Assembly (NCBI GenBank): GCA_016932165.1
Contig: JAFGDK010000047.1
Span: forward strand, 1 to 64,000
Length of the DNA: 64,000 nt
From: Anaerolineales bacterium
GTDB lineage: Bacteria; Chloroflexota; Anaerolineae; Anaerolineales; UBA11579
Reading direction: 5' to 3'
Below, one piece after another: positions 18,464-50,268 of the stretch. The position numbers and the translations under genes were made by a program. Position 1 is the stretch's first letter. Every line of letters starts with the position of its first letter. The notes beneath the pieces were generated by a model, which saw only the letters and a program-made list of their open reading frames with translations, did no database searches and had not been told where the DNA came from.

Positions 18464-18509
18464 CTGGTTGCGGCTGGCCGCTTTTCTCCAGCGATTTATA
18501 CTGAAACAT

Positions 18510-25482: not shown

Positions 25483-27077
25483 TGAGTGAATTTAAGCAGC
25501 GGGTGAAGAATCTGGCGGACAACCTGCCCTTCAGCGGTGATCTCGAATGGCGTCTGGTGGGGCGGTCCAGGATGCAGGAGAATGAACGCTTCCGGCAGTT
25601 CCTTGAGAATGTGCAAACCTGGGCAGACGATGCCCGATCGGTGCCGGTCAAATCTGGTGAGAGTAAGAAAGTTCTGCTCTTTGCCATGATCCACCTGTGG
25701 GTGCGCTACGCTGCGGCGCTGAGTCTGCTGCTCAACCGCCTGGGACATAATGTCACCCTGGCATACCTGCCGTATCAAAATTGGTTCGATGAAAGCCCGC
25801 CGCGTGAAGATACCCGCCTGCATTATTACTATCAGGCATGCCTGCAGCCGCTTGCACCGTTGATTTCCCTGCGGACGTTGTATTCCCGCCAGCAAAAACC
25901 TGCACCCGTCCCGGAGGAACTGGCTGCCAGGATCGAGATGATTTCCGAACGTGATTTCCAGTATTCCCGCCAGGTGGAAGAGGTAGATCAAGACGATCCT
26001 CTGTTTATGCTGCGGCGTAAACGCAACCGGTATGCCGCCGGGGAATTCTATCAGCTGCTGCAAGCCGACCGGCCGGATGTGGTCATCGTCCCCAATGGGA
26101 TGATCCTGGAATTCGGCGTTTTATATGAGGTTGCCCGGTATCTTGAGATTCCGGCTGTGACCTATGAGTTTGGCGAGCAAAAAGACAAAATTTGGATCTC
26201 GCAGGACCAGCCAGTGATGTTCCAAAACACCGATGAACTATGGGACAAATATAAAGATCAACCCTTTACGGAGGGGCAGCAAAACCAGATTGAGGAGCTT
26301 TACGCTTCCCGCAAAAATGCCTCGTTGTGGAAGCAGTTCTCCCGCCAATGGCAGGAAGTGCCCTCCGAAGGGGAACGGGAGGTGAAAGCCCGGCTGGGTC
26401 TGGATGAGCGGCCAATCGTGCTGATGGCGGTCAATGTGATCGGAGACAGCCTGACCCTTGGGCGCCAGGTCTACTCTGTGGATATGTCTGAGTGGATCAG
26501 CCGTACGCTGGCTTACTTCAGGGAGAAGCCAGAGGTGCAGTTCATCCTGCGCATCCACCCCGGAGAACGTTATACCGACGGTCCCTCGGTGGAGGACATC
26601 ATCCGCCAGCGGTTCTTGGACGTTCCCGACCACTTCAGGGTGATCTCTGCCAGCGACAAGATCAATACTTACGATCTGGTGACGATTGCCGACCTCGGCC
26701 TGACCTACACCACCACGGTGGGGATGGAAATGGCGATGAGCGGCCTGCCGGTGATCGTCTCAGGCAATACCCATTACCGCGGCAAAGGCTTCACTCTGGA
26801 TCCCGCTTCATGGGAGCAATATTTTGAGATCATCGAGGCCGTGCTGGCTTCTCCAGGAGCGTACCAGTACACCGCAGAAAAACTGAATACAGTCTGGCAT
26901 TATGCCTACTGCTTTTTCTTTGAATACCCCTTCCCCAGCCCGTGGCATTTGCGCGGCATCCTGGAGATGATCCAGGAACAGCCGATTTCCCGGCTGGTCT
27001 CAGAGGAAAGCTTGCAGCAGTATGGCAGCACCTACAGTTTCTTGCTCAACCAGACTGTGGCAAAAAAAGAAAACTGA
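25482..27077 (+). CDS. Capsule-synthesis-like surface polysaccharide protein (paralog of 41914-43557)
   Basis: FILRIHPGE..; INTYDLVTIADLGLTYTTTVGMEMAMSGLPVIVSGNTHYRGKGFT. Confidence 0.65.
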   Translation: MSEFKQRVKNLADNLPFSGDLEWRLVGRSRMQENERFRQFLENVQTWADDARSVPVKSGESKKVLLFAMIHLWVRYAAALSLLLNRLGHNVTLAYLPYQNWFDESPPREDTRLHYYYQACLQPLAPLISLRTLYSRQQKPAPVPEELAARIEMISERDFQYSRQVEEVDQDDPLFMLRRKRNRYAAGEFYQLLQADRPDVVIVPNGMILEFGVLYEVARYLEIPAVTYEFGEQKDKIWISQDQPVMFQNTDELWDKYKDQPFTEGQQNQIEELYASRKNASLWKQFSRQWQEVPSEGEREVKARLGLDERPIVLMAVNVIGDSLTLGRQVYSVDMSEWISRTLAYFREKPEVQFILRIHPGERYTDGPSVEDIIRQRFLDVPDHFRVISASDKINTYDLVTIADLGLTYTTTVGMEMAMSGLPVIVSGNTHYRGKGFTLDPASWEQYFEIIEAVLASPGAYQYTAEKLNTVWHYAYCFFFEYPFPSPWHLRGILEMIQEQPISRLVSEESLQQYGSTYSFLLNQTVAKKEN

Positions 27078-27106
27078 CCAACATATTATTTTATTTGGAG
27101 CAACTT

Positions 27107-28120
27107 ATGGATTGGACAAAATCAACCGTGATGGTAACCGGCGGGACCGGCTCATTTGGCAAAAAATTCATCAAGTCCATGCTGGAAAAGCAGCTTGCTG
27201 AGAAGGTGATCGTTTTCAGCCGCGATGAGCTCAAGCAGCACGAGATGCGCATGGCCGGCTTTGATACCCCCAACCTGCGCTACTTCATCGGCGATGTGCG
27301 CGACCAGGAACGGCTGCGCCGGGCGATGCAAGGCGTGGACGTGGTTGTGCATGCCGCTGCCCTCAAGCAGGTGCCCGCCTGTGAGTACAACCCCAAGGAA
27401 GCGATTAAGACCAATATCAACGGCACCAGCAACGTGGTGGAAGCCGCTTTGGATGCCGGAGTGAAAAAGGTGCTCTCGTTGAGCACCGATAAAGCTGTCA
27501 ACCCGGTCAACCTATACGGGGCGACCAAGTTGGCCGCCGAGAAACTGGCGATCCAATCCAACGCCTATGCCGGCGGTCGCGAGACGCGCATCTCCTGCGT
27601 GCGCTACGGCAATGTGGTCGGCAGCCGGGGCAGCGTGGTACCCATGTTCCTGAAGCAGCGGGAGAGCGGCGCTGGCAAGCTGACTGTCACCGACGAGCGT
27701 ATGACCCGCTTCTGGATCACACTCGACCAGGGGGTGGCCTTTGTGATCCGGTGCATTGAGCAGATGCACGGCGGCGAAGTGTTTGTGCCCAAGATTCCCA
27801 GCACCACGATCGTGGACCTGGCCAGAGCGATTGACCCGGATGCCGAGATCGAATTCATCGGCATCCGCCCCGGCGAGAAGCTGCATGAAGTGCTCATCTC
27901 TGAAGATGAAGCCCGCTCCACGGTGGAACTGGACGATATGTATGTGGTGCAGCCGGCCACAGCCTCCTGGTTCGGCTACGAATGGGAAGGCGCCGGCAAA
28001 AAGCTGGAAGACGGCTTCCGCTATGCTTCCAACACCAATGATGAGTGGCTGACGATTGAGGAGATCAAGGCGATTGTCGCCCCCATCGAGGAAGAATACC
28101 TCAAAGGAACGCTGCTCTGA
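27107..28120 (+). CDS. pseB: UDP-N-acetylglucosamine 4,6-dehydratase (PseB-like SDR)
   Basis: VMVTGGTGSFGKKFIKSML; FSRDELKQHEMR; HAAALKQVPACEYNPKEAIKTNINGTSNVV; STDKAVNPVNLYGATKLAAEKL; ATG at 27107 with upstream GGAG. Confidence 0.9.
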   Translation: MDWTKSTVMVTGGTGSFGKKFIKSMLEKQLAEKVIVFSRDELKQHEMRMAGFDTPNLRYFIGDVRDQERLRRAMQGVDVVVHAAALKQVPACEYNPKEAIKTNINGTSNVVEAALDAGVKKVLSLSTDKAVNPVNLYGATKLAAEKLAIQSNAYAGGRETRISCVRYGNVVGSRGSVVPMFLKQRESGAGKLTVTDERMTRFWITLDQGVAFVIRCIEQMHGGEVFVPKIPSTTIVDLARAIDPDAEIEFIGIRPGEKLHEVLISEDEARSTVELDDMYVVQPATASWFGYEWEGAGKKLEDGFRYASNTNDEWLTIEEIKAIVAPIEEEYLKGTLL

Positions 28121-29034
28121 TGAAAATTTTGATCACTGGTTCCAGCGGGTTGCTGGGTTTGAACCTGGCGCTGGAACTTGCTCCTGATCACACCGTGGTC
28201 GGCGCAGACCGCAACCCGCTTACCTCCCAGCTGCCCTTTGAAGCGGTGGGTGTCGATCTGCTGGATCCCGGTGTGGTGGCGGCTCTGCTGGAGGATGTGC
28301 AGCCGGATGCGGTGATCCACTGCGCCGCAATGGCCGATGTGGATGCTTGTGAAAGCGAACCGCAAGCAGCCCGGCGGATGAACGCCTGGCTGCCGGGCGA
28401 GATTGCTGCCCAATGCGCCCGGTACGGGATTCAACTGGTGCATATCTCCACCGATGCGGTCTTTGACGGCCAGAGTGGCGGCTACACTGAGGAAGACCCG
28501 CCCAATCCGCTGAGCGAATATGCCCGGACTAAGCTGGATGGCGAGGAGGCCGTATTCTCTGCCATGCCGGAAGCCGTGGTCACCCGGATCAATATTTTTG
28601 GCTGGAGCGCAACCGCCAACCGCAGCCTGGCAGAATTTTTCTATTACAACCTGGCCGCAGGCAAACCGCTAAAAGGCTTTACCGATGTGATCTTCTGCCC
28701 GCTGCTGGTCAATCACCTGGCGGCTGTGTTTGCACTAATCTTGGAGAAAAAGCTCAGCGGGTTGTACCACCTGGTCAGCCCGGTGGGATTGAGCAAATAC
28801 CAGTTTGGCGTGCGTATCGCCGAGCTGTTTGGCTTTGATCCGACTGGGATCGAGCCAGTCAAGGTTGCCGATTTTGGGCTCAAAGCGGCTCGTTCCCTGC
28901 GTCTGACGCTGGACACCAGCAAGCTCAGCCAGGCCCTTGGCAGGCCGCTGCCGGATGTGTTTGACGGGCTGGAACGTTTTTATCAGCTCCACCAGCAGGG
29001 CCACCAGGAGAAGTTGAAAGCCATGCTGGGATAA
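28120..29034 (+). CDS. dTDP-4-dehydrorhamnose reductase-like SDR (RfbD family)
   Basis: MKILITGSSGLLGLNLALEL; DAVIHCAAMADVDACESEP; GIQLVHISTDAVFDG. Confidence 0.85.
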   Translation: MKILITGSSGLLGLNLALELAPDHTVVGADRNPLTSQLPFEAVGVDLLDPGVVAALLEDVQPDAVIHCAAMADVDACESEPQAARRMNAWLPGEIAAQCARYGIQLVHISTDAVFDGQSGGYTEEDPPNPLSEYARTKLDGEEAVFSAMPEAVVTRINIFGWSATANRSLAEFFYYNLAAGKPLKGFTDVIFCPLLVNHLAAVFALILEKKLSGLYHLVSPVGLSKYQFGVRIAELFGFDPTGIEPVKVADFGLKAARSLRLTLDTSKLSQALGRPLPDVFDGLERFYQLHQQGHQEKLKAMLG

Positions 29035-29075
29035 TTAGTTCGGCTGAAGGCTGAACGTCAGTCAGGAGAGTAACT

Positions 29076-30143
29076 ATGGAAATCAAGATATTGGATAAAA
29101 CCATCGGGCCAGACCACCCAACCTACTTCATTGCCGATATTGCTGCCAACCACGACGGCGACCTGGAACGCGCCAAACAGCTGATCCGCCTGGCTAAAGA
29201 AGCCGGGGCGGACGCGGCCAAGTTCCAGAACTTCCAAGCCCCCAAGATCGTCTCCGATTACGGTTTCAAGGCCATGGACAGGCAGGTCTCCCACCAGGCA
29301 GAATGGAGCAAGAGCGTTTATGAAGTTTATCAGGCTGCCTCTGTGCCGTTTGAGTGGACGCCGATACTCAAGGATGAATGCGACAAGGCCGGGATTCATT
29401 ACTTCACTTCTCCCTATGACCATAAATCGATTGAGATGGTTGACCCTTACATTCCGGCCTTCAAGGCTGGCTCCGGCCTGATCTCCTGGCCGGAAATGAT
29501 CGTGGAGATGGCCAAAAAAGGAAAGCCAGTGCTGGTATCCACGGGGGCATGCAAATTGGGAGAGGTGGTCAATGCCATGGAAAAAGTAATGGCGGTGACT
29601 GACCAGATTGTGTTGTTCCAGTGCAATACCAATTACACCGCCAGCCCGGATAATTACGACCACCTGCACCTGCGCGTGCTGGAAACCTACAAAGCGATGT
29701 TCCCGGATGTGGTCCTGGGTCTCTCAGACCACACCCACAGCCCGGCTCCGGTGGTCGGTGCGGTGACATTAGGCGCGCGGGTGATCGAGCGGCACTTCAC
29801 CGACAGCAACCAGCGGGAAGGCCCTGACCACAAGTTCGCCCTCAACCCGCACACCTGGGCTGAGATGGTCGAACAGGTGCGCATTCTGGAACGCTCCCTC
29901 GGTTCGCCGCTGAAGCAGGTCGCCGATAATGAAAAAGATACTTACATTGTACAGCGCCGCTGCCTGCGGGCGGGATGTGAGATCAAAGCCGGCGAAGTCT
30001 TCACCGCTGAGATGATCGAAGTCCTCCGCCCGGCTACCCCCGGCGCATTGATGAGCTGGGACCTCGACCAAGTAATCGGAATGAAAGCCCGTACCGATCT
30101 GCCTTTTGGCAAGGAGTTGCGCTGGTCTGATCTGGAGGACTAA
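29076..30143 (+). CDS. N-acetylneuraminate synthase-family nonulosonate synthase (NeuB/PseI/LegI type), copy 1, with SAF-like C-terminus
   Basis: YFIADIAANHDGDLERAKQLIRLAKEAGADAAKFQNF; VLVSTGACKLGEV; LGLSDHTHSPAPVVGAVTLGARVIERHFT; RRCLRAGCEIKAGEVFTAEMI. Confidence 0.9.
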   Translation: MEIKILDKTIGPDHPTYFIADIAANHDGDLERAKQLIRLAKEAGADAAKFQNFQAPKIVSDYGFKAMDRQVSHQAEWSKSVYEVYQAASVPFEWTPILKDECDKAGIHYFTSPYDHKSIEMVDPYIPAFKAGSGLISWPEMIVEMAKKGKPVLVSTGACKLGEVVNAMEKVMAVTDQIVLFQCNTNYTASPDNYDHLHLRVLETYKAMFPDVVLGLSDHTHSPAPVVGAVTLGARVIERHFTDSNQREGPDHKFALNPHTWAEMVEQVRILERSLGSPLKQVADNEKDTYIVQRRCLRAGCEIKAGEVFTAEMIEVLRPATPGALMSWDLDQVIGMKARTDLPFGKELRWSDLED

Positions 30144-35981: not shown

Positions 35982-36989
35982 ATGAGTGATCGCAGGATGA
36001 AATTTATGATCGCGGGATTAGGATCGATTGGCCGCCGTCACCTGCGCCACCTTAAAGCCCTGGGGCAGGATAACCTGCTGCTGTACCGCACGCACCGCAG
36101 CACCCTGCCGGATGATGAATTGGCGGGTATCCCGGTGGAGACTGATCTGCAGGCTGCTTTGGCGCATAAGCCTGACGCGGTGATCGTCTCCAATCCGACC
36201 GCCTTGCACCTGGATGTCGCCATCCCGGCGGCTGAAGCCGGCTGTCATATTCTGCTGGAGAAACCGGTTTCTCACTCCCTGGAGGGATTGGACAAGCTGA
36301 AGAGAGCGGCACAGAAAAGCGGCGTCCGCATCCTGGTGGGCTTCCAGTTCCGCTACCACCCTGGTCTGCGCCGGATTGCAGAGCTCCTGCAAACAGAGTT
36401 GGTGGGACGGCCAGTCTCATTCCGCGCCCACTGGGGGGAATACCTGCCGGCCTGGCATCCCTGGGAAGATTACCGCGCCAGCTACAGCGCCCGCCGGGAC
36501 CTGGGCGGCGGGGTGATCCTCACCCTGACCCACCCGCTGGATTATCTGCACTGGTTGTTGGGTGCGGTGCAGGAAGTATGGTCATTTGCTGGGCAGTACA
36601 CTGATCTTGAACTGGATGTGGTTGATACGGCCGAAATCGGGCTGCGCTTTGGTTCTGGCGTGGTCGGCAGCGTACACTTGAACTACACCCAGCGCCCGCC
36701 CCGGCACCAGCTGGAGATAGTGTGCACGGAGGGCACCTTGCGTTGGGATAACGCCGGAACGGCGCTGGAAGTCTACCGCGCCGAAACCACTTTCTGGGAG
36801 CAGCACCCCCTGCCGGTGGGCTTCCAGCGCGATGATCTATTCAGCGCCCAGATGAAGCATTTTTTACAGGTGGTGGAGGGAACGGCAGCGCCATTCTGTA
36901 CGCTGGATGACGGCATCGCTGCCCTGGAACTGGCTCTGGCGGCACATCAGTCAGCGGAAGAAAAGAGGCTGGTTTTGCTGGGGAAGTGA
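35982..36989 (+). CDS. Gfo/Idh/MocA family oxidoreductase
   Basis: FMIAGLGSIGRRHLRHL; CHILLEKPVSHSLEGLDKL; GGVILTLTHPLDYLHWLLG. Confidence 0.92.
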   Translation: MSDRRMKFMIAGLGSIGRRHLRHLKALGQDNLLLYRTHRSTLPDDELAGIPVETDLQAALAHKPDAVIVSNPTALHLDVAIPAAEAGCHILLEKPVSHSLEGLDKLKRAAQKSGVRILVGFQFRYHPGLRRIAELLQTELVGRPVSFRAHWGEYLPAWHPWEDYRASYSARRDLGGGVILTLTHPLDYLHWLLGAVQEVWSFAGQYTDLELDVVDTAEIGLRFGSGVVGSVHLNYTQRPPRHQLEIVCTEGTLRWDNAGTALEVYRAETTFWEQHPLPVGFQRDDLFSAQMKHFLQVVEGTAAPFCTLDDGIAALELALAAHQSAEEKRLVLLGK

Positions 36990-37110: not shown

Positions 37111-38859
<1,749 letters not shown>

Positions 38860-38918: not shown

Positions 38919-39743
38919 ATGAATACGTTGCCAGAAATGTTCAGCTTGAGGGATCGGGCGGCGGTGGTCACCGGCGGATCAGGCCTGCTGGGGCGGCAGT
39001 TCTGCCTGACCCTGTCCGAGGCCGGCGCTGCGGTGGCAGTTGTGGATATCAACGCTGAAAAGGCTGAATCAGTTGCCGCTGAGATCATGGAGCAGGGCGG
39101 TAAAGCCCTTGCCATCCCCACCAATATTGCCGACTCTGATTCTGTGTCCGCCATGACCGCCAGAACGTTGAAATCGTTTGGACGGCTGGATATTCTGGTC
39201 AACAGCGCCGCGCTTGACCCCAAATTTGACCCTGACAGCGTTGGCAGCCAGGGGGCGAATGCCTTTGAGACTTTCCCGCTGGATGGCTGGCAGCAGGCTT
39301 TGGATGTCAACCTGACCGGCATGTTCCTGTGCTCGCAGGCCGCGGTCAAGCCGATGCTGGAGCAGCGCAAAGGTGTGATCATCAACCTGTGTTCCACTTA
39401 TGGCCTCGTTGGGCCAGACCAAAGACTCTACCAGCGGAAAGGCGAGCCGCCCAAGTACAAGCCGGTAACTTATACGGTGACCAAATCGGGCGTGATCGGG
39501 ATGACCAAATATCTGGCAACTTATTACGGCACCCGCAACATTAGGGTCAATGCCCTTACCCCCGGTGGGGTGTACAATAACCACGACCCGGAATTTACCA
39601 TGGCTTATTCATACCGCACCGCCATGGGGCGCATGGCAGAACAGCACGAGATGAACGGCGCCTTGCTGTTTCTGGCCTCAGATGCATCCAGCTATATGAC
39701 CGGCAGCAACCTGATTGTGGACGGCGGCTGGACGGCCTGGTAA
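38919..39743 (+). CDS. SDR family oxidoreductase (PtmA-like context)
   Basis: AAVVTGGSGLLGRQFCLTLSEAGAAVAVVDIN; Y..TKSGVIGMTKYLA; NLIVDGGWTAW. Confidence 0.88.
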   Translation: MNTLPEMFSLRDRAAVVTGGSGLLGRQFCLTLSEAGAAVAVVDINAEKAESVAAEIMEQGGKALAIPTNIADSDSVSAMTARTLKSFGRLDILVNSAALDPKFDPDSVGSQGANAFETFPLDGWQQALDVNLTGMFLCSQAAVKPMLEQRKGVIINLCSTYGLVGPDQRLYQRKGEPPKYKPVTYTVTKSGVIGMTKYLATYYGTRNIRVNALTPGGVYNNHDPEFTMAYSYRTAMGRMAEQHEMNGALLFLASDASSYMTGSNLIVDGGWTAW

Positions 39744-39760: not shown

Positions 39761-41008
39761 ATGGCTGAGATCAGAGTAGGCGAAATATTGGCAGTGATTC
39801 CCGCCCGAGGCGGCTCTAAAAGCATCCCGCGGAAGAATATTCTGCCGTTTGCCGGTTATCCGCTGCTGGCCTACAGCATCGCGGCTGCCTTGCAGTCTGA
39901 TCTGGTGACGCGCACGATTGTCTCCACTGATGATGAGGAGATTGCTGCCGTGGCGCAAGAATTTGGGGCCGAGGCGCCTTTCATCCGCCCGGCAGAATTT
40001 GCCCAGGATACCACCCCCGATTTACCGGTGTTTGTGCATGCCCTGGCGTGGTTCCGACAAGCGGAAGGTTACCTCCCCGAGATGGTGGTGCAGCTCCGTC
40101 CGACCACCCCGGTGCGCCCGCCCGGCTGCGTCGATCAAGGTATCCGTCTGCTGCAGGCGCGCCCGGATGCAGATTCCCTGCGGGCAGTGGTTCCCTCCGG
40201 GCAAAATCCGCATAAGATGTGGCGCATCAACCAGCAGGGTGAGATGTCTGCCCTGCTGACATTGAAACACATCTCGGAGCCGTACAATGCGCCCCGCCAG
40301 CAGCTGCCGCCTACCTACTGGCAGACCGGCCACCTGGATATTATCCGCCCGTCAACCCTGCTGGAGAAAAACTCGATGACCGGCGATGTGATCCTCCCGC
40401 TGGTAATGGACCCGCGCTACACCGTGGATATTGATACCCCCAATGACTGGAGCCAGGCAGAATGGCTGATCCGCTATGGCGGGCTGGAAGTGGTGCGGCC
40501 GCAAAAGCGCGCCTTCGGCTTGCCGGAAAGGCTGGACCTGGTGGTCTTCGACTTTGATGGCGTGTTCACCGATAACCGCGTCTGGGTGGACCAGAACGGG
40601 ATAGAGCAGATCGCCGCCAGCCGTGAGGATGGCATGGGTATTTCCCTGCTGAAGAACGCCGGGGTTGAGTCCATCGTGCTCTCTACTGAGACCAATCCGG
40701 TGGTGACCGCCCGCTGCAAGAAAATGGAACTTCCCGTTTATCAGGGTGTGGAAGCCAAAGGGCAAGTGCTGAAAAACCTGCTGGCTGAGAGAGGTGTATC
40801 AGGGGAGAATGTGATCTACCTCGGTAATGATGTCAATGACCTGCCGTGCTTCCGGCTGGTTGGCTGTGCTGCGGTCGTGGCGGACGCCCACCCCGATGTG
40901 CTGCCGTATGCTGATCTGGTGTTAAGTAAACCCGGCGGCTTCGGCGCGGTGCGGGAATTGTGTGATTTGATTCTGGAAAATTACTCGTTGAAGGAGAATG
41001 CGAAATGA
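39761..41008 (+). CDS. Acylneuraminate cytidylyltransferase fused to KdsC-like HAD phosphatase
   Basis: N-terminus LAVIPARGGSKSIPRKNILPFAGYPLLAYSI; C-terminus LDLVVFDFDGVFTDNRVWVDQNG..EQIAASREDGMGISLLKNAGVESIVLSTE..YLGNDVNDLPC. Confidence 0.92.
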   Translation: MAEIRVGEILAVIPARGGSKSIPRKNILPFAGYPLLAYSIAAALQSDLVTRTIVSTDDEEIAAVAQEFGAEAPFIRPAEFAQDTTPDLPVFVHALAWFRQAEGYLPEMVVQLRPTTPVRPPGCVDQGIRLLQARPDADSLRAVVPSGQNPHKMWRINQQGEMSALLTLKHISEPYNAPRQQLPPTYWQTGHLDIIRPSTLLEKNSMTGDVILPLVMDPRYTVDIDTPNDWSQAEWLIRYGGLEVVRPQKRAFGLPERLDLVVFDFDGVFTDNRVWVDQNGIEQIAASREDGMGISLLKNAGVESIVLSTETNPVVTARCKKMELPVYQGVEAKGQVLKNLLAERGVSGENVIYLGNDVNDLPCFRLVGCAAVVADAHPDVLPYADLVLSKPGGFGAVRELCDLILENYSLKENAK

Positions 41009-41913: not shown

Positions 41914-43557
41914 ATGAGCCGAATCTCTGAATTGATTAAAAAAATCCGGGAGGAATATCGCCTGCGCCGGGACAAGCTGGTGAATATTGACCGGTTTGGT
42001 GCGATAGCCAAAGAGATTGAGAGCGGTGAATCCGCGCTAAGCCAGGATGCCGGTACGGTAGTGGTCTTCAATGCCAGCACCCGGCTGGCAAATTTCAGCC
42101 TGAATGCGGCTTTCTCACTGCTCTCTTCCTGGGGGCTGCGCCTGTCTGGTTGGCGGGTGATCCATTTTGTCTGCCAGGGCGGGATGAGCCGATGTGTATT
42201 GGGCTCATCCGAGAATCACCCTTATATCCAGCCGCCCTGCAAGTTGTGCGCGGCATTTTCACATCATCTCTATAGCGGTAGTGAGATAGCGGGATTTGAA
42301 TACAAACGCGACGAAGACCTTAGCAATGCCCTGGTTGGAAAATCAGTTGCAGAGATGATGAATTTCGTCTTTGAAGACCTGCCGCTGGGTGAAATTGTGC
42401 TCCCCTCCCTCCGTTGGCGCATGAGGCGCCATCATCTTGAGGAAGATGAAACCACCCTGCTTCTCTTCCGGGAATTCATCCTCTCAACCTATCACGTTGG
42501 CAAGGAATTTGCAGCCCTCGCCGACCGGGAAAAACCCGATCTGGTGCTGGTTTTTAATGGGCAGATGTTCCCCGAAGCGATCGTCCGTTATTTAGCCCGG
42601 CAGCGAGGTATCAAGGTGATCTCGCACGAAACCGGCTACCAGCCGTATACCGCCTTCTTTACCACCGAGGATGCCACAGCGCGCAAAATTTACCTCACCG
42701 AGGAAGAGAAGACCCTGACCGAAGAAGAAAATCGGCGTCTGGATGCATACCTGGAAAAACGATTCCAGGGAAGCTTCAGCATGGCAGGGGTAAAATTCTG
42801 GCAGAATATGGAAGGCTTTCCGGCAAGCATTGAAGAAAAATTAAAAACCTACGAACAGGTGGTGCCGATTTTCACCAATGTGATCTTTGATACCAGCCAG
42901 GCACACGCCAACACGGCTTTTGAGCATATGTTTGCCTGGTTGGATGCGATCCTGGAAGTGGTCAGGGCGCACCCCGAGACCTTATTTGTGCTGCGCGCCC
43001 ACCCTGATGAACTGCGGCCAAACTCAACCAAGAAAAGCAAAGAAACCGTGCAGGATTGGGTGGAAGAAACCGGGGCCGCCGACTTGCCTAATCTGATCTT
43101 CATACCGCCGCTGCAATTTGTCAGCTCCTACGATCTGATCAGACAGTCTAAATTTGTGCTGGCCTACAACTCCTCCATTGCTCTGGAAGCTGTCCTCCTG
43201 GGAAAATTATCTGTCTGTGCTGGCTGGGCTTGGTACTCAGAATATCCCGTTGTGATCTCTCCCCAAAATGCCCAGGAATTCACCCAAAAAACAGCGGAAC
43301 TGTTGGCGGCCGAACAGGTAGAACTGCCGGAACAATTCCTCCAAGTGGCGCGTGCCCTGGTCTATTACCAGAACTTCCGCGTATCAATTCCTTTCGATCG
43401 TTATTTAGGGTCGCATACTCTTCCGGGGTTTGTGCGCTTGAAATCTTTTGATGTCGCCGAACTGAATGAGCAGGATGATCCCGCAGTACAATCTCTGCTT
43501 GCCGGTATTCGGAGTGATCTGCCGGTAATCAAGCTGGAGCGTAACTATGGCAACTGA
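41914..43557 (+). CDS. Capsule-synthesis-like surface polysaccharide protein (paralog of 25482-27077)
   Basis: FVLRAHPDELRPNS; QFVSSYDLIRQSKFVLAYNSSIALEAVLLGKLSVCAGWAWYS. Confidence 0.65.
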   Translation: MSRISELIKKIREEYRLRRDKLVNIDRFGAIAKEIESGESALSQDAGTVVVFNASTRLANFSLNAAFSLLSSWGLRLSGWRVIHFVCQGGMSRCVLGSSENHPYIQPPCKLCAAFSHHLYSGSEIAGFEYKRDEDLSNALVGKSVAEMMNFVFEDLPLGEIVLPSLRWRMRRHHLEEDETTLLLFREFILSTYHVGKEFAALADREKPDLVLVFNGQMFPEAIVRYLARQRGIKVISHETGYQPYTAFFTTEDATARKIYLTEEEKTLTEEENRRLDAYLEKRFQGSFSMAGVKFWQNMEGFPASIEEKLKTYEQVVPIFTNVIFDTSQAHANTAFEHMFAWLDAILEVVRAHPETLFVLRAHPDELRPNSTKKSKETVQDWVEETGAADLPNLIFIPPLQFVSSYDLIRQSKFVLAYNSSIALEAVLLGKLSVCAGWAWYSEYPVVISPQNAQEFTQKTAELLAAEQVELPEQFLQVARALVYYQNFRVSIPFDRYLGSHTLPGFVRLKSFDVAELNEQDDPAVQSLLAGIRSDLPVIKLERNYGN

Positions 43558-44446
43558 TGATAGGCTGGAAATCCTCTCGGTCTCACTGCTTGAGAATAAA
43601 ACTCTGGTTAATGAAATGAAGCAAATTGCCGCCCAAATGCGGGTGGAATTTGGCTGGCATTATCTACTTGATCTGGTCTGGATTATTGAGTGCCTCGATC
43701 TGGAGTCGCTGGCCAATGTTCTGGATGCTGGCGCGGGTAGAGGGGTGATCCAGTTTTTCCTGGCTTCCAAAGGAATTAACGTGGTCAGCGTCGACCGGGT
43801 CAGCCGGGCATATTTGCCGCTCCATTTCAGAAAGTATTGTCAGATCGAAGGATTTACTCCGGAGGACCTGGCATCTCCAGCCAAAACACTTTTCCGCTTG
43901 GCAAAACGGGAAGGAAATCTTGACCGCAAAGTGCGGGAGTTTGTTCGCGACCTGGTATTCTTCCCAGCGGGCAAGTCGATTGCGCCGGGCAGCGGCAAAG
44001 TGCTCATCTACCAGCAAGATCTGAAGAACCTCAAAAAGATTGAAGACAATTCCATGGATGCCGTTGTAGCGGTCTCTGCATTGGAGCATAACCTCCCAGA
44101 AGATTTGCCACAAGTGGTGGCCGAGTTGATGCGGGTGCTGAAGCCTGGCGGCAGGCTGGTCGCCACCCTGTCCACCAGCGGCAGCCAGGACCAGTACCAC
44201 CAGCCTTCATCTGGTTGGACCTACTGCGAAGCCAGCTTAAAAGCTCACTTTGGGCTGGACGCTGATGTGATCTCAAATTATGACCAGTTACCGGCACTTT
44301 TCGAGGACCTAAGGCATTCAACTGAACTCAAAGAAGGTCTGGCAAAGTTTTACTTCCAACGCGGTGAAGGAGGGATGCCCTGGGGTGTCTGGGACCCGCA
44401 GTACGTACCGGTGGGGGTCTGCAAAGTAAAGCCGCTGGCTGGTTAG
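43547..44446 (+). CDS. Class I SAM-dependent methyltransferase
   Basis: ANVLDAGAGRGVIQFFLASKGINVVSVDRV; MDAVVAVSALEHNLPEDLPQVVAELMRVLKPGGRLVATL. Confidence 0.88.
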   Translation: MATDDRLEILSVSLLENKTLVNEMKQIAAQMRVEFGWHYLLDLVWIIECLDLESLANVLDAGAGRGVIQFFLASKGINVVSVDRVSRAYLPLHFRKYCQIEGFTPEDLASPAKTLFRLAKREGNLDRKVREFVRDLVFFPAGKSIAPGSGKVLIYQQDLKNLKKIEDNSMDAVVAVSALEHNLPEDLPQVVAELMRVLKPGGRLVATLSTSGSQDQYHQPSSGWTYCEASLKAHFGLDADVISNYDQLPALFEDLRHSTELKEGLAKFYFQRGEGGMPWGVWDPQYVPVGVCKVKPLAG

Positions 44447-44462: not shown

Positions 44463-44708
44463 ATGGAAACCCAAAAAACCTTATCAGAGCAAGTGCAGGC
44501 CGTGCTGCAGGAGGCGCTGCGCGTTGGAGCTGGAGAGATCGGCCCGCAAACACAATTCGGCGACCTGCCGCAGTGGGATTCGATGGGGCACATGGAAGTG
44601 ATGGTCGCCCTGGAGAAGGCTTTTGGCGTGGAGATCACCGCTGATACGATCACCGAACTGGTCAGCATCCCGGCGATTTGTTCTTATATCGAGGCCCGCC
44701 ATGAGTGA
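44463..44708 (+). CDS. Acyl/aminoacyl carrier protein
   Basis: 81 aa; QWDSMGHMEVMVALEKAFGVEI contains the phosphopantetheine DS(M/L) motif. Confidence 0.9.
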   Translation: METQKTLSEQVQAVLQEALRVGAGEIGPQTQFGDLPQWDSMGHMEVMVALEKAFGVEITADTITELVSIPAICSYIEARHE

Positions 44709-45888
44709 GCAACTTGAGATCACCCCGGTTGTTACTATCCCCGACCATCTCGTCGGGCAGATCAGGTCAAAACTGGCCTATGTGGACGAGTTGATTGCCC
44801 AGGCGGAGATCAGCGAGGACGGCAGTCTGATCACGCTTGCCCTGCACCGCAAGGCCAGTGAGGACAAGAAGGCCAATATCGCAGGAAAAATTCAGCACGT
44901 GGTAGAGGAAATGGCCCGCGGTGCTATCCAGCCCAAAGTGGAGGTTCTGGAAGACCATTCCGCCAGGCCGACTTATTATGACCGTGATCCGATGGAAGTG
45001 CTGCGAGCCAGCGCCGAGGTTTATGAAGAGGAGACGGGTGTCTTCGTGTTCGGACCGCTGGTCACCCGGCTGATGGATTTCTTTGAAAGCCGCTTTTTGA
45101 TGCTGGCGGACGAATTTGAGGCCAAACCCTACCGCTTTCCCACCCTAATCTCTGCAAAAATGCTCGACCGGGTGGACTATTTCAGCGCCTTCCCGCATTC
45201 CCTGACCTTCGCCACTCACCTGCGCGAAGACCTGGATGTGATCAACCATTTTGCCCATGAAGCGCATTATACAGAGGATGGGCTGAATGCCCCGGCAGAG
45301 AGCTTTTCCAGATTTAAGATGCTCAATTCCCCGGCAGTTTGCTACCACCTGTACTTCTCCCTGGCCGATCACCCGCTGCCGGACGGCAAACTGATCGCCA
45401 CTGCAGTGGGGCACTGCTTCCGCTACGAATCCACCAACCTGACTTCGATGGAACGCCTGTGGAACTTCACCATGCGCGAGGTGATCTTCGTCGGACCTAA
45501 GGATTTTGTACTGGAAAACCGGGAAAAATCCCGCCAGTTGATGGAGAAGATCTTCGAAGATATCGGCCTGGTGTACCACGTGGAGACCGCCAATGATCCC
45601 TTCTTTGTCGGCGAGTTCCGCAAGCAGGTTGCCTTCCAGACTGCCTTCCAATTGAAATACGAGATCAGAGCCAAGCTGCCTTTCAAGAACAGCACCCTGG
45701 CGGTGGGCTCCTACAACTACCACCAGGATTTCTTTGGCCGGCACCTGGGTATCACCCTGCCGGATGGCGGGCCGATCCACACCGGGTGCACCGCTTTCGG
45801 CCTGGAGCGGATCGTGTATGCCTTCCTGTCCCAGTTCGGATTTGACCAAAGCAAATGGCCTCAGGTAGTCAGGGATTGGATCAAATGA
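44701..45888 (+). CDS. Class II aaRS-like protein, predicted amino acid:[carrier protein] ligase
   Basis: Class II motif 2 GHCFRYESTNLTSMERLWNFTMREVIFVG and motif 3 TGCTAFGLERIVYAFL; candidate Zn ligands C/E/C in NSPAVCYHLY, FRYES, TGCTAFG; start overlaps the ACP stop (ATGAGTGA). Confidence 0.78.
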   Translation: MSEQLEITPVVTIPDHLVGQIRSKLAYVDELIAQAEISEDGSLITLALHRKASEDKKANIAGKIQHVVEEMARGAIQPKVEVLEDHSARPTYYDRDPMEVLRASAEVYEEETGVFVFGPLVTRLMDFFESRFLMLADEFEAKPYRFPTLISAKMLDRVDYFSAFPHSLTFATHLREDLDVINHFAHEAHYTEDGLNAPAESFSRFKMLNSPAVCYHLYFSLADHPLPDGKLIATAVGHCFRYESTNLTSMERLWNFTMREVIFVGPKDFVLENREKSRQLMEKIFEDIGLVYHVETANDPFFVGEFRKQVAFQTAFQLKYEIRAKLPFKNSTLAVGSYNYHQDFFGRHLGITLPDGGPIHTGCTAFGLERIVYAFLSQFGFDQSKWPQVVRDWIK

Positions 45889-46397
45889 ACGCCGCGATTG
45901 AGGTCAGCTACCGGGTAGGAACCGAAGCGGATTTCCCGGTGATCAAGGGCTTTTACGAAAAACTGGATACCTTCTTCCGCGAGATCGACCTGGGACTGCC
46001 CCAACCTGAAGATGTCGGCCAGGCCTGGCTGGATTCTTTCTCCCGGCTGTACGGCAAATTTGCCCTGGTGCACATTGCCGAGATTGAAGGTCAGGTTGTC
46101 GGTTTCATGCTTTCTCGGATCAAGCGCGTGCCCCCGTATTGGGGCGGCGTGATGGTCGGCACTCTCAGCGATATGTGGATCGAAGATAAAGGCCGTCGGC
46201 TGGGCATCGGGCGCAAGCTCTCCGAGCTGGCCCTGGACTGGCTGCGCATGCAGGGCGTGCACTCCATCGAGATCCAGGTGCTGGCCCAGAATGACCCCAG
46301 CTGGAAGCTGTATGAAAGTATGGGCTTCAAGCTCGAACTGCGCCAGGCCCGATTGCTGTGGGACGATTACGATAGATATAAAGATGCAAGAGGTTAG
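45885..46397 (+). CDS. GNAT family N-acyltransferase
   Basis: MWIEDKGRRLGIGRKLSELALDWLRMQGVHSIEIQVLAQNDPSWKLYESMGFK; ATGA overlap with the upstream gene. Confidence 0.88.
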   Translation: MNAAIEVSYRVGTEADFPVIKGFYEKLDTFFREIDLGLPQPEDVGQAWLDSFSRLYGKFALVHIAEIEGQVVGFMLSRIKRVPPYWGGVMVGTLSDMWIEDKGRRLGIGRKLSELALDWLRMQGVHSIEIQVLAQNDPSWKLYESMGFKLELRQARLLWDDYDRYKDARG

Positions 46398-47160
46398 CCG
46401 CCAGCAAGTGATGGATAGTTTGAAGGCAGCGGGCATTTCCAGAGGCGATGGCCTGCTGGTGCACTCTGCCTTGCAATTCTTGGGGCGTCCATCTGACGGG
46501 GTGGGCATGTACCTGGAAGCGCTGGATGAGGTCATTAGGTTCTTCAATTCAGAGGGGCGGGTGGCTGTGCCGACTTTCAATTTCAGCTTTGCCCGCGGCC
46601 AGGACTACAACCCGGCGACTGCCCCTTCGATTGGGATGGGTGCTTTCTCTGAATTGGTGCGACTGGATCCCCGCTCCCACCGCACCACCCATCCGATGCA
46701 GTCCTTTGCCCTGATCGGCGCCCGGGCGGAGGAACTGGCCTCCCTGGATACACCCTCTGCTTTCGATGATGGTTCAGCGGTTGATAAGATGCTGGAAATG
46801 GATGACAAGTTGCTGCTCCTGGGGGCCAATATCCAGGCGGTTTCCGCCCTGCATTACAGCGAGCAGCGCACCGGCGTGCCCTACCGCTATTGGAAAGATT
46901 TTCACGGGAATATTCTCCGCAATGGAGAATGGCAGCCAGTCTGCTACCGCATGTACGTGCGGGATATGCAGATTGACGCCAAACTGGAGATCTTTGAAAT
47001 TGAATCTGTAATGAAACAGCGCGGCCTGTGGCGGGAAGTCCCCCTCAATTACGGCAAGATTGCCACCTGCCGCCTGCGTGACTTTGTAGATATAACCACT
47101 GAGCTGCTCAAGGCAGACCCCTGGCGCTTTGTGACCAACAAACCGGAGGAGGCCGGATGA
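46384..47160 (+). CDS. AAC(3)-like (aminoglycoside 3-N-acetyltransferase fold) family protein
   Basis: GDGLLVHSALQFLGRPSDGVGMYLEALDEVI; VAVPTFNFSF; RTTHPMQSFALIGARAEEL; KLLLLGANIQAVSALHYSEQRTGVPYRYWKDFHG; ATG at 46384. Confidence 0.85.
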   Translation: MQEVSRQQVMDSLKAAGISRGDGLLVHSALQFLGRPSDGVGMYLEALDEVIRFFNSEGRVAVPTFNFSFARGQDYNPATAPSIGMGAFSELVRLDPRSHRTTHPMQSFALIGARAEELASLDTPSAFDDGSAVDKMLEMDDKLLLLGANIQAVSALHYSEQRTGVPYRYWKDFHGNILRNGEWQPVCYRMYVRDMQIDAKLEIFEIESVMKQRGLWREVPLNYGKIATCRLRDFVDITTELLKADPWRFVTNKPEEAG

Positions 47161-48479
47161 GCACGATGATGGGACTGATTGACGAGCTGTGGTACTTGGC
47201 GCGCGAGCTGGTCTCAGATGAATATGACCAGGCGCTGCAACGGCTGGCAGAAGAAGCGCCGATGACGATCCACAAATACCCCTCCGGGATGCCGGCCTGG
47301 ACGTGGACTGTGCCGGAGAAATGGACTTGCCACGAAGCTTATCTGGAGACACTCGACGGGCGCCGAATGATCGACCGGGCCGATCATCCCTTGCACGTGG
47401 TTTCCTATTCGCTGCCCTTTGAGGGTGTGGTGGGGCGGGAAGAACTGCTGGAGCATCTGCATGTTCACCCATATGATCCCGACCTGATCCCCTTTGTTTT
47501 TAAGTATTACCAGCGTGAGTGGGGCCTGTGCCTGACGCAGAAACAGCGCGGCGCCCTGGACGAAGACCAATACCGGGTGGTGATCCGCACCAGCTTTGAG
47601 CCGGGCACCCTCAAGGTGGGAGAAGTGATCGTGCCAGGCGAGGTGGAAGACAGCTTCATACTGGCCGCCCATTTGTGCCACCCGGCGCAGGTCAATGACG
47701 ACCTCAGCGGCGTGGTCGTTGGGCTGGATGTGATGCGCCGCCTGCTGGAGAGGAAAAAGCCGCATTACACCTACCGGTTTTTGATCCTGCCGGAAACGAT
47801 CGGCTCGGTTGCTTATCTCAGCCAGCACGAAGACCTGATCCCGAAGATGGTGGGCGGGCTGTTCCTGGAAATGTTGGGCAACGATTCCGGTCTGGCGCTG
47901 CAGCAGTCCTTTATGCCGGAGAGCCAGTCCGACCAGGCGCTGACCGCCGCCTTGCGAGGCGTGGATCCGCAGGGGTTCGTCGGCCCATACCGTACGATTA
48001 TCAACAACGACGAACGTCAGTTCAACGCCCCAGGGGTGCGCGTGCCGATGCTCTCCCTCTCGCGGGTTGAACATCCGCAGTTGCTCGAGTCGATGTACCG
48101 CCCTTACCCGGAATACCACTCCAGCGCCGATACCCCAGCGATTGTCTCCCAGGCGCGGCTGGAGGCTGCCCGGGATACCGTGCTGGCGATGGTTTTGGCC
48201 TTTGATCAGAATGCGTATGTGGTCAATCACTTCAAAGGCGAGGTGTTCGCCTCAGGGTATGGCATCTGGATCGATTACCGCGATAACCCGGAGGGCCACC
48301 GCAGCCTGTTCCAGATCATGGAGCGCTGCGACGGCACCCACACCGTGGCCGAGATCGCTAACCAGCTGGGAATCCCCTTCCAGGCAGTCTGGGAGATCAT
48401 TGCCCAATTCTCAGAGAAAGACCTGGTCAGCTTAAGCCGTACCCGGCAGCCGACTGATCCACACACGAGGAAACTGTGA
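47157..48479 (+). CDS. DUF4910/aminopeptidase-like protein with C-terminal wHTH-like tail
   Basis: VIVPGEVEDSFILAAHLCHPAQVNDDLSGVVVGLDVMRRLL; GLFLEMLGNDSGLALQQS; C-terminal HTVAEIANQLGIPFQAVWEIIAQFSEKDLV. Confidence 0.8.
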   Translation: MSTMMGLIDELWYLARELVSDEYDQALQRLAEEAPMTIHKYPSGMPAWTWTVPEKWTCHEAYLETLDGRRMIDRADHPLHVVSYSLPFEGVVGREELLEHLHVHPYDPDLIPFVFKYYQREWGLCLTQKQRGALDEDQYRVVIRTSFEPGTLKVGEVIVPGEVEDSFILAAHLCHPAQVNDDLSGVVVGLDVMRRLLERKKPHYTYRFLILPETIGSVAYLSQHEDLIPKMVGGLFLEMLGNDSGLALQQSFMPESQSDQALTAALRGVDPQGFVGPYRTIINNDERQFNAPGVRVPMLSLSRVEHPQLLESMYRPYPEYHSSADTPAIVSQARLEAARDTVLAMVLAFDQNAYVVNHFKGEVFASGYGIWIDYRDNPEGHRSLFQIMERCDGTHTVAEIANQLGIPFQAVWEIIAQFSEKDLVSLSRTRQPTDPHTRKL

Positions 48480-49327
48480 AGAAGCCGATCAAAGACACCG
48501 CCCGGATTGTGCGCTGGCGGCTGCGCCGGATGACCGACCGCCAGGCTGACCTGCGGGTTGATTTGCCTGCCCTTTTCGCTAATTCTTTCCCCAAGTCGGG
48601 CACCCATTTGCTCACCCAGGTGTTAGCCGGATTCACCCGGCTAGGCCCGTTCATCGACACCCGTCTGCCGGCAATCACGATGTTCAAGGGGCGCACCGGC
48701 GCGGCATTTTCAATGAAGACCCTGCTCCGCCAGATCAACCGGCTGGGTCCGGGAGATATCGGCTACGGCCACCTGCACGCCGATCCGCTGATTGTTGAGG
48801 CCTTGTGCAGACCGGGGATGGCAGCGTACTTCATCTTGCGAGACCCGCGCGATGTGGTTGTCTCGCATGCCTATTATGTCACTGGGGGGAATGCCAAACA
48901 TTCCCTGCGCGGCTACTATAACCAGCTGGAGAGTTACGAGGAACGGCTTAAGATCAGCATCACCGGCCTGCAGCTGGGGGAAATCTACTTCCCTGATGTG
49001 ACCGATAGATTTGAGCCATATCTTGGCTGGTTTAACCGTCCAGAGATCCTCACCCTGCACTTTGAGGATTTTCTCACCCGGCGAGAAGAAAGCCTCCACC
49101 GGGTGCTGGATCATGCCATTGCCCGCGGCTTTGCCTATCATGGGGATCGGGATGAAGCCGTTGAGAAGTTGGCTGCTGTGATAGACCCCAATAGTTCTCC
49201 CACTTTCCGCAGTGGAAAAGCAGGCGGATGGCAGGATAAATTTACCCAGGAACACATCGATCTCTTCAAAAAAATCGCCGGCGACCTGTTGATCCGTCTG
49301 GGCTACGAACAGGATCTGGACTGGTGA
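48476..49327 (+). CDS. Sulfotransferase family protein 3
   Basis: LFANSFPKSGTHLLTQVLAG; AYFILRDPRDVVVSHAYYVTG. Confidence 0.87.
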   Translation: MKKPIKDTARIVRWRLRRMTDRQADLRVDLPALFANSFPKSGTHLLTQVLAGFTRLGPFIDTRLPAITMFKGRTGAAFSMKTLLRQINRLGPGDIGYGHLHADPLIVEALCRPGMAAYFILRDPRDVVVSHAYYVTGGNAKHSLRGYYNQLESYEERLKISITGLQLGEIYFPDVTDRFEPYLGWFNRPEILTLHFEDFLTRREESLHRVLDHAIARGFAYHGDRDEAVEKLAAVIDPNSSPTFRSGKAGGWQDKFTQEHIDLFKKIAGDLLIRLGYEQDLDW

Positions 49328-50268
49328 TGGAGAAACCGCGCTCCTGCTCGGTGGTCATCCGTGCTTTCAACGAGGCCGATCATATCGGCAGGCTGCTGAA
49401 CGGCATCCGGCAGCAGTCCCTGCCGGTGGTGGAGGTCATCCTGGTGGATTCGGGCTCCACCGACAGCACCGTGCAGATTGCCAGGGAATTTGGAGTTAAG
49501 CTGGTCAATATCAGGCCAAAGGAGTTCTCCTTTGGCCGCTCGCTGAACCGGGGGATTGCTGCTGCTTCGCACGATTTCATCGCCATGATCAGTGCCCATT
49601 GCTACCCAGTCTACTCCGACTGGCTGGAAAAACTGATCGAACCGCTGGCAGACCCCGGGGTTGCGATCAGCTATGGCAAACAGCGCGGCGGCGAAACCAA
49701 CCAGTATTCCGAACACCAGTGGTTCAAGCAGTACTTCCCGGACTATTCCCTCCCCAGCCAGGGGCACGCATACTGCCATAACGCCAATGCCGCCATCCGC
49801 AAGAGCTTGTGGGAGCAGCACCCTTATAATGAGCAGCTTACCGGTCTGGAAGACCTCGGCTGGGGCAGCTGGGCCTTCGAGCAGGGATACAAGATTGCCT
49901 ACTCCGCTGAGGCAGAGATCATCCACCTGCATGATGAAAAACCGGCCCAGGTGTATAACCGTTACCGCCGGGAAGCGATCGCCATGAAGCAGATATTGCC
50001 GGAGAGCACCTTCAGCCTGTGGAACTTCTTCCGGCTGGCATCCAGCACGGTGTCCTCCGATCTGCTCCAGGCCCGGCGGGACGGTGTGCTGGGAAATCAT
50101 TGGGCCAGCATCTTCTGGTTCCGGATTTTGCAATACTGGGGCACCTACCGCGGCTACCGCCACTCCGGGGATGTCGATTTTACGATGATCCAGCAGTTCT
50201 ATTATCCGCCGGGGATCTTATCGGAGAAGAAACCGGCAGAACGGAATGTGGAGCGGATTGACTATTAA
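49327..50268 (+). CDS. Glycosyltransferase family 2
   Basis: CSVVIRAFNEADHIGRLLNGIRQQSLPVVEVILVDSGSTDSTVQIA; ATG at 49327. Confidence 0.9.
   Translation: MEKPRSCSVVIRAFNEADHIGRLLNGIRQQSLPVVEVILVDSGSTDSTVQIAREFGVKLVNIRPKEFSFGRSLNRGIAAASHDFIAMISAHCYPVYSDWLEKLIEPLADPGVAISYGKQRGGETNQYSEHQWFKQYFPDYSLPSQGHAYCHNANAAIRKSLWEQHPYNEQLTGLEDLGWGSWAFEQGYKIAYSAEAEIIHLHDEKPAQVYNRYRREAIAMKQILPESTFSLWNFFRLASSTVSSDLLQARRDGVLGNHWASIFWFRILQYWGTYRGYRHSGDVDFTMIQQFYYPPGILSEKKPAERNVERIDY

Follow-up and report, generated by a model that had tools for sequence, protein, structure and literature searches.

We analyzed a 64,000-nucleotide stretch of an Anaerolineales genome (positions 1 to 64,000 of contig JAFGDK010000047.1, assembly GCA_016932165.1; hereafter the window), in which an acyl carrier protein (ACP) is encoded beside a ligase resembling class II aminoacyl-tRNA synthetases (aaRSs) and several acyltransferase-like proteins. 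The draft host genome comprises 3.13 Mb, and the feature studied lies on its contig C53. An earlier reading of the sequence (the original prediction) had described a five-gene block with short overlaps at 44463-48479, and all five open reading frames (ORFs) were indeed found on the plus strand, followed by a sulfotransferase gene:

44463..44708, +, acyl/aminoacyl carrier protein, 81 aa; PF00550 PP-binding, E 1e-9; phosphopantetheine motif WDSMGHME
44701..45888, +, class II aaRS-like amino acid:[carrier protein] ligase, 395 aa; PF00587 tRNA-synt_2b, above gathering
45885..46397, +, GNAT N-acetyltransferase, 170 aa; PF00583, E 4e-14
46384..47160, +, AAC(3)-family acyltransferase, 258 aa; PF02522, E 3e-31, 109 bits against a cut-off of 25
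47157..48479, +, DUF4910/DUF2172 and HTH_47-like, M28-related protein, 440 aa; PF16254, E 3e-63
48476..49327, +, sulfotransferase, 283 aa; PF00685, E 5e-10

The ACP and ligase genes overlap by 8 nt and the GNAT and AAC(3) genes by 14 nt, and the ligase/GNAT and AAC(3)/DUF4910 overlaps are both ATGA. The DUF4910 stop codon also overlaps the sulfotransferase start at 48476 by 4 nt (GTGA), so that the coupled block extends beyond 48479. The motifs quoted in the original prediction (WDSMGHMEV, FRYE..RLWNFTMREVIFVG and GCTAFGLER) all occur in the translations.

The ligase, its partners and their conservation

Sequence, structure and genomic context identify the ligase and its ACP as a pair. The ligase proved to be a homologue of the Bll0957-type amino acid:[carrier protein] ligases, as had been proposed. 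It matched Bll0957 (3mey) with E 7e-37 in phmmer and E 3e-59 in a profile search (hmmsearch), and the top Foldseek match of its AlphaFold2 model (mean pLDDT 92.3) was 4h2s, the complex of a glycine:[carrier protein] ligase with its carrier protein (TM(target) 0.86, rmsd 3.0 A, 31% identity). The Zn ligands, which the original prediction had named as a point to check, are intact: C214, E260 and C363 align with the Zn-ligand positions of type-2 seryl-tRNA synthetase (SerRS) and Bll0957, and are invariant among 35 homologues from many phyla, down to 32% identity. D299, F301, F302, Q313, K319, E321, S337, N339 and H341 are also invariant in this alignment. The proposal that the protein is simply a core devoid of the tRNA-binding domain needs correction. 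Most of the SerRS N-terminal domain, comprising about its first 100 residues, is missing from the ligase, but an N-terminal domain of about 95 residues is kept, which AlphaFold2 predicts as beta-alpha-beta-beta-alpha-beta, and profile positions 40-79 match the last part of the N-terminal domain in type-2 SerRS, a portion absent from Bll0957. An ordinary SerRS is encoded elsewhere in the same genome.

Against the NCBIfam amino acid--[ACP] ligase NF005479, the ligase gave E 8e-46 and 156.4 bits, under the cut-off of 357, and thus represents a large related clade and not a member of that equivalog. In the tree, it falls inside a Chloroflexota clade (support 100/96), to which Rhodospirillales/Magnetococcales and then Acidobacteria/Verrucomicrobia are nearest. 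The Bll0957 type lies outside the window clade, and because this placement is weakly supported (90/56, long branches), we make no claim on its ancestry within the larger family. Amino-acid specificity is not readable from the ligase sequence, and the residues aligned with SerRS N435/S437 and W396 are not diagnostic, since they are common to Bll0957 and partly to one SerRS. The viral contigs searched contained no ligase relative. Long ORFs in L017, L019 and L086 that resembled ligase fusions apparently arise from upstream read-through; for L017 and L019, the annotation shows separate genes.

The ACP bears the DS(M/L) phosphopantetheine motif, with D39/S40 at least 95% conserved among 57 homologues. 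The AAC(3) protein passes the PF02522 domain test, with H103, H157 and E160 conserved in the homologue alignment, and scores far under the NCBIfam resistance-gene cut-offs; by this test, it is classed as something other than a resistance enzyme. Structure comparison placed the GNAT protein nearest to polyamine and aminoglycoside N-acetyltransferases, a fold assignment that does not settle its substrate.

A genome scan yielded 45 Chloroflexota loci, in which each gene was scored only where the contig reaches far enough. The ACP adjoins the ligase in 40/40 loci, AAC(3) is present in 41/41 and DUF4910 in 36/36, and GNAT lies directly downstream of the ligase in 40/45, as well as in 8 loci of other phyla. 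The neighbourhood survey that the original prediction had called for also tied the block to nonulosonate genes: it is mostly set within a nonulosonate and sulfate locus, with NeuB and NeuA-KdsC in 29/33 loci, a downstream sulfotransferase in 29/33 and a PAPS (3'-phosphoadenosine 5'-phosphosulfate) synthase in 18/23. In L028, an O-antigen-ligase-like gene lies just upstream. Among 151 surveyed genomes of the order, 29 carry the ligase; DUF4910 is above cut-off in 27 of these, as compared with 63/151 overall (Fisher p 2e-10), and is close by on the same strand in 24, while AAC(3) is close to the ligase in 25. Since the gene order is kept in about 45 Chloroflexota loci and is accompanied by this co-occurrence, a chance arrangement is excluded. 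Across all phyla, an ACP-like gene lies near the ligase in 69/87 loci.

The DUF4910 protein matched PF16254 and PF09940 above cut-off and PF16221 just below, in a DUF4910+DUF2172+HTH_47 architecture, and its closest structure was 3k9t (E 2e-61), with residues mapped by alignment. The single-Zn H-D-H site of CA_C2195 is kept, and Ala and Pro occupy the positions of CA_C2195 S191/P225, so that the catalytic Asp and Glu that define peptidase family M28, together with two Zn sites, are missing. CA_C2195 likewise lacks both residues (PMC4000134). Ordinary peptidase action is thus unlikely. Furthermore, AAC(3)-DUF4910 pairs were found in 27 loci whose genomes lack the ligase. Such genomes also contain a natural fusion of the two in 715 residues (L134:6797-8944, minus strand), and G248:C14 and G255:C38 have this single open frame too. 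AAC(3) is therefore the constant partner of DUF4910, and ligase-ACP-GNAT is an add-on. These observations make the originally proposed role of DUF4910, a trimming or editing hydrolase, doubtful; it may instead act by transacylation or by an unusual amidase reaction. In 2014, DUF4910 of Clostridium acetobutylicum was listed with a nonulosonate synthase, an ACP, an acetyltransferase and an ATP-grasp aminoacyl ligase, and the authors suggested transacylation of an amino sugar for that locus, also raising an unusual amidase reaction (PMC4000134).

The surrounding locus and related cassettes in other phyla

The block is flanked in the window by the following genes:

35982..36989, +, Gfo/Idh/MocA oxidoreductase; PF01408; conserved order in relatives
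37135..38859, +, bifunctional sulfate adenylyltransferase/adenosine 5'-phosphosulfate kinase (PAPS synthase); NF004040, 854 bits, above cut-off
38919..39743, +, short-chain dehydrogenase/reductase-type oxidoreductase of the nonulosonate block; PF13561; conserved order
39761..41008, +, CMP-nonulosonate cytidylyltransferase fused to a KdsC-like HAD phosphatase (NeuA-KdsC); PF02348, PseF 160 bits, KdsC 116 bits
41005..41901, +, NeuB-family nonulosonate synthase; PF03102, E 6e-79
41914..43557, +, capsule-synthesis/glycosyltransferase-like protein; PF05159, NF046086; conserved order
43547..44446, +, S-adenosylmethionine methyltransferase directly upstream of the ACP; PF08241; found in a subset of relatives
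49324..50268, +, GT2 glycosyltransferase; PF00535
50478..51161, +, second CTP-transferase family protein (cytidylyltransferase); PF02348
52928..53734, +, MptE-like protein; PF01973, E 1e-12

In this context, the PAPS synthase would supply PAPS to the sulfotransferases. PF01973 is a family that includes DUF115/Maf glycosyltransferases. A second nonulosonate set lies at 26942-30143, comprising a PseB-type UDP-GlcNAc 4,6-dehydratase that exceeds the TIGR03589 cut-off, together with another NeuB that carries a SAF domain. The contig of the window encodes no DegT-type sugar aminotransferase, and three strong matches lie elsewhere in the genome. Two phosphopantetheinyl-transferase (ACPS-family) genes are present in the genome, one of them on the window's contig at 70094-70381 on the minus strand, past the window end. 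An AMP-binding (ANL)-related protein is encoded at 18468-20198, 24 kb upstream in a separate gene group, and is unlikely to charge the ACP, since the Chloroflexota relatives encode nothing equivalent close to their ligase.

Beyond Chloroflexota, ligase-ACP pairs are often accompanied by DltB-like MBOAT proteins, an observation that goes beyond the original prediction. An MBOAT lies within 3.5 kb of the ligase in 18/35 non-Chloroflexota loci versus 0/45 Chloroflexota loci, and no ligase neighbourhood contains both MBOAT and AAC(3). Five MBOATs were above the Pfam cut-off, and DltB (TIGR04091) was the best NCBIfam match for 6/6 MBOATs tested (E 7e-13 to 3e-56). The gene orders were as follows:

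MBOAT-ACP-ligase-GNAT: Acidobacteria L071, L075, L076 and L079
ACP-ligase-GNAT-MBOAT: Verrucomicrobia L073
ACP-ligase-MBOAT: Akkermansia-labelled metagenome-assembled genomes L074 and L077
FG-GAP protein-ACP-ligase-U309-MBOAT: Paenibacillus
ACP-ligase-GNAT-U309-MBOAT: Tumebacillus L101
ACP-AlgX-like-MBOAT-ligase: Rhodospirillaceae L064 and L066

In Rhodospirillaceae (L064:7206-13161 and L066), the cassette sits beside or near an asparagine-synthase-like gene, and an AlgX- or DUF1574-like gene, comparable to DltD in Dlt, is also present in L064 and L069. In Paenibacillus and Tumebacillus (L088, L094, L096, L099, L100, L102, L103 and L101), an FG-GAP repeat protein of about 1050-1110 residues adjoins the ligase-MBOAT cassette and is perhaps its surface target or receptor; U309 of these cassettes has about 310 residues and a weak GDSL match only. 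An apparent MBOAT-ACP fusion in L079 was rejected, since the 500-residue ORF shows a C-terminal PP-binding match only and the MBOAT match begins in another frame.

A third architecture, in Zixibacteria, Krumholzibacteria, GN15 and two Proteobacteria, combines the ligase with a GNAT-like protein and a hexapeptide acyltransferase. In L085, L087, L089, L090, L091, L093 and L098, the GNAT-like protein (about 335 residues) follows the ligase, and most of these loci have a divergent ACP-like ORF upstream. AAC(3) recurs with ACP-ligase in two unrelated lineages, Phycisphaerae L070 and the proteobacterial contig L083, where the order at L083:1-3083 is AAC(3)-ACP-ligase-formyltransferase, possibly hinting at an N-formyl instead of an N-acetyl cap. 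Across the ligase tree, the acyltransferase type switches several times, with 5 changes over four partner types. Loading of the ACP only by a fatty acyl-AMP ligase had been named in the original prediction as an observation that would speak against it. Acyl-AMP ligases (ANL/DltA type) were found close to the ligase only in two Streptomyces clusters and L095, and the glycan-type relatives had none there. Classical Bll0957-type genes form ACP-acyl-CoA dehydrogenase-ligase-DUF1839 loci. Related ligases also occur in clusters resembling those for polyketide synthases (PKSs) and nonribosomal peptide synthetases (NRPSs) in actinobacteria and in a plasmid cluster of B. wiedmannii with a BtrH-like gene (L017, L019, L018 and L145), so that natural-product pathways seem to draw on this loading chemistry as well.

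A predicted aminoacyl-transfer pathway and its alternatives

The Dlt system attaches D-alanine to teichoic acids, with DltB taking D-alanine from a carrier protein. We regard it as probable that the block serves to transfer aminoacyl groups to a surface glycan, in a Dlt-type pathway whose DltA is replaced by a ligase derived from tRNA synthetases. The common denominator of ligase, carrier protein and acyltransferase, like DltA, DltC and DltB, points to an aminoacyl-S-ACP donor, and the DltB-like partners in other phyla lend independent support to a carrier protein that hands its aminoacyl group on to a glycan. The catalytic steps, amino acid and acceptor set out below are all inferred. The ligase would use ATP to convert an amino acid into its aminoacyl-AMP, the probable substrates being small ones, for example Gly or Ala, and would load the aminoacyl group onto the phosphopantetheine thiol of the neighbouring ACP. 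GNAT, where present (in the majority of members), would then acetylate the free amine of the carried amino acid, which is the simplest role for the most frequent fourth partner, found in both AAC(3) and MBOAT contexts. Finally, an acyltransferase would move the (N-acetyl)aminoacyl group onto the sugar. In Anaerolineales, this would be AAC(3), and since it is a cytoplasmic N-acyltransferase, the acceptor should be soluble, presumably the amino group of a nonulosonate or other activated sugar that the adjacent genes produce. The equivalent job would fall to the DltB-like MBOAT, at the membrane, in Acidobacteria, Verrucomicrobia, Paenibacillus and Rhodospirillales. DUF4910 would be the partner of AAC(3) on this sugar acceptor and would most likely unmask or swap the N-acyl group that the acceptor carries; with no DegT aminotransferase on the contig, an N-acetyl group may have to serve as the source of the free amine, a conversion that DUF4910 could carry out. 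Glycans with amino-acid or peptide acyl groups are documented, including Leg5GluNMe7Ac in C. botulinum and taurinyl-Ala-Gly on Fuc3N of C. difficile flagellin (PMC5207245), with further flagellar examples in PMC2674064.

Several points weigh against this pathway. The cassette activity is itself predicted from sequence, structure and context; the ligase scores below the NCBIfam cut-off for its nearest named family, and all MBOAT matches to DltB fall under the equivalog cut-off. GNAT is missing in 5/45 Chloroflexota loci, so its step would be optional or separate. The aminotransferase gap makes any assignment of the acceptor amine tentative, the ligase-less AAC(3)-DUF4910 pairs mean that AAC(3) may use acetyl-CoA independently, and the partial likeness of the N-terminal domain to that of SerRS makes some RNA role conceivable.

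The independence of AAC(3) is taken furthest if the operon holds two separate units, with ligase-ACP-GNAT producing (N-acetyl)aminoacyl-ACP destined for a different acceptor and AAC(3) N-acetylating the nonulosonate from acetyl-CoA once DUF4910 has acted. The 27 ligase-less loci and the fusions fit such a division, as do L137, L140 and L141, where AAC(3)-DUF4910 is flanked by NeuB and a cytidylyltransferase and neither a ligase nor an ACP was recognised nearby, and the Acidobacteria and Verrucomicrobia that have ligase-ACP-GNAT without AAC(3). However, where the contig reaches, the Chloroflexota ligase is always found with both AAC(3) and DUF4910, and AAC(3) stands beside ACP-ligase in the unrelated L070 and L083, and loci lacking AAC(3) usually have another acyltransferase; we thus consider two units unlikely. 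Alternatively, DUF4910 could be a deprotecting hydrolase that removes the cap added by GNAT once AAC(3) has transferred the group, like BtrG or VinJ, the deprotecting enzymes of butirosin and vicenistatin biosynthesis. Its gene order and translational coupling, its M28-like fold with the Zn ligands kept, and the BtrH-like gene adjoining a homologous ACP-ligase pair in B. wiedmannii L018 would suit this role. Its occurrence with AAC(3) where neither ligase nor GNAT is present and the loss of the M28 catalytic Asp/Glu, shared with CA_C2195 (PMC4000134), render it improbable.

The block might also make a small secreted metabolite, since homologous ligases occur in Streptomyces PKS/NRPS-like clusters and Bacillus plasmid clusters. 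Given that the Chloroflexota block lies inside a conserved nonulosonate/sulfation/glycosyltransferase locus, with the O-antigen-ligase-like gene upstream in L028, we judge a natural-product pathway very improbable. Equally remote, or slightly more so, is a ligase that charges tRNA, or both tRNA and ACP, with aminoacyl-tRNA as the GNAT donor in a Fem/MurM-like transfer. GNAT and Fem enzymes have a common fold, and the N-terminal domain shows partial homology to the domain with which type-2 SerRS binds tRNA, but the roughly 100 unmatched residues at the start of that SerRS domain, the ordinary SerRS in the genome, the carrier-protein gene kept beside the ligase across phyla and the ligase-carrier complex as closest structure all speak for the carrier protein, on whose thioesters DltB-type partners draw.

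Beyond the aminoacyl-transfer cassette of the window, it is possible, at slightly less than even chances, that an aaRS-derived ligase with a dedicated carrier protein constitutes a general aminoacyl-donor module for surface glycans in several phyla: a second, independently evolved Dlt-like chemistry, coupled interchangeably to DltB-like membrane, AAC(3) cytoplasmic or hexapeptide acyltransferases and often N-acetyl-capped. What the amino acid:[carrier protein] ligases do physiologically has been an unsettled question ever since they were discovered. The clade described here is tied by conserved gene order in many phyla to glycan acyltransferases, DltB homologues especially, which offers a concrete, testable pathway; if correct, it would be the first defined for this superfamily, would link a tRNA-synthetase fold to cell-surface chemistry, and would provide a second route beside Dlt for altering surface charge. 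It also predicts aminoacylated sulfated nonulosonate glycans in Anaerolineales. Members of this order are filament-formers of wastewater sludge. Sialylated and sulfated extracellular polymeric substances have been reported in granular sludge, where they were not assigned to Anaerolineales (PMC10483923).

Comparison with known systems

A literature search, with subscription papers mostly outside its coverage, returned no description of an aaRS-like ligase with an ACP and a glycan acyltransferase, nor of one beside DltB-like proteins. The original remark that the combination was not known as a described pathway agrees with this for the aaRS-like ligase, whereas part of the arrangement was noted in 2014, in the CA_C2195 DUF4910 loci (PMC4000134). 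There, as in the window, DUF4910 accompanies a NeuB-type synthase, an ACP and an aminosugar acetyltransferase in a surface-glycan locus, but the aminoacyl ligase is of the ATP-grasp type, in place of the class II aaRS-like ligase and GNAT found here in a sulfated locus.

Bll0957/Atu2573-type ligases share the catalytic core, the Zn ligands and a nearby carrier-protein gene with the window clade, which differs in its extra N-terminal domain, its separate position and its score under the NCBIfam cut-off; moreover, the classical members sit with acyl-CoA dehydrogenase and DUF1839 and not with glycan acyltransferases. Type-2 (methanogen-type) SerRS has the same core and Zn site and aligns at the end of its N-terminal domain, but the ligase lacks most of the tRNA-binding domain, adjoins an ACP gene and coexists with an ordinary SerRS. 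The butirosin (BtrI/BtrJ/BtrH) and vicenistatin (VinN/VinM/VinK/VinJ) pathways also transfer aminoacyl groups from carrier proteins, an ACP-carried amino acid being capped and a dedicated transferase delivering it to an amine or aglycone; they employ other ligase families and yield soluble antibiotics, not a surface glycan.

Finally, Dlt (DltABCD) likewise pairs a carrier protein with an aminoacyl-loading ligase, and many relatives of the window cassette add a DltB-like MBOAT and sometimes an AlgX/SGNH-like protein. In contrast, the window-type ligase is derived from class II aaRSs whereas DltA is an ANL enzyme, GNAT is often added, and the transferase in the window is AAC(3) and not MBOAT. 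Both hallmarks of Dlt, a DltB-type MBOAT (0/45 Chloroflexota loci) and an ANL-type DltA, are thus absent from the Chloroflexota cassette, and the system would work like Dlt but is not Dlt.

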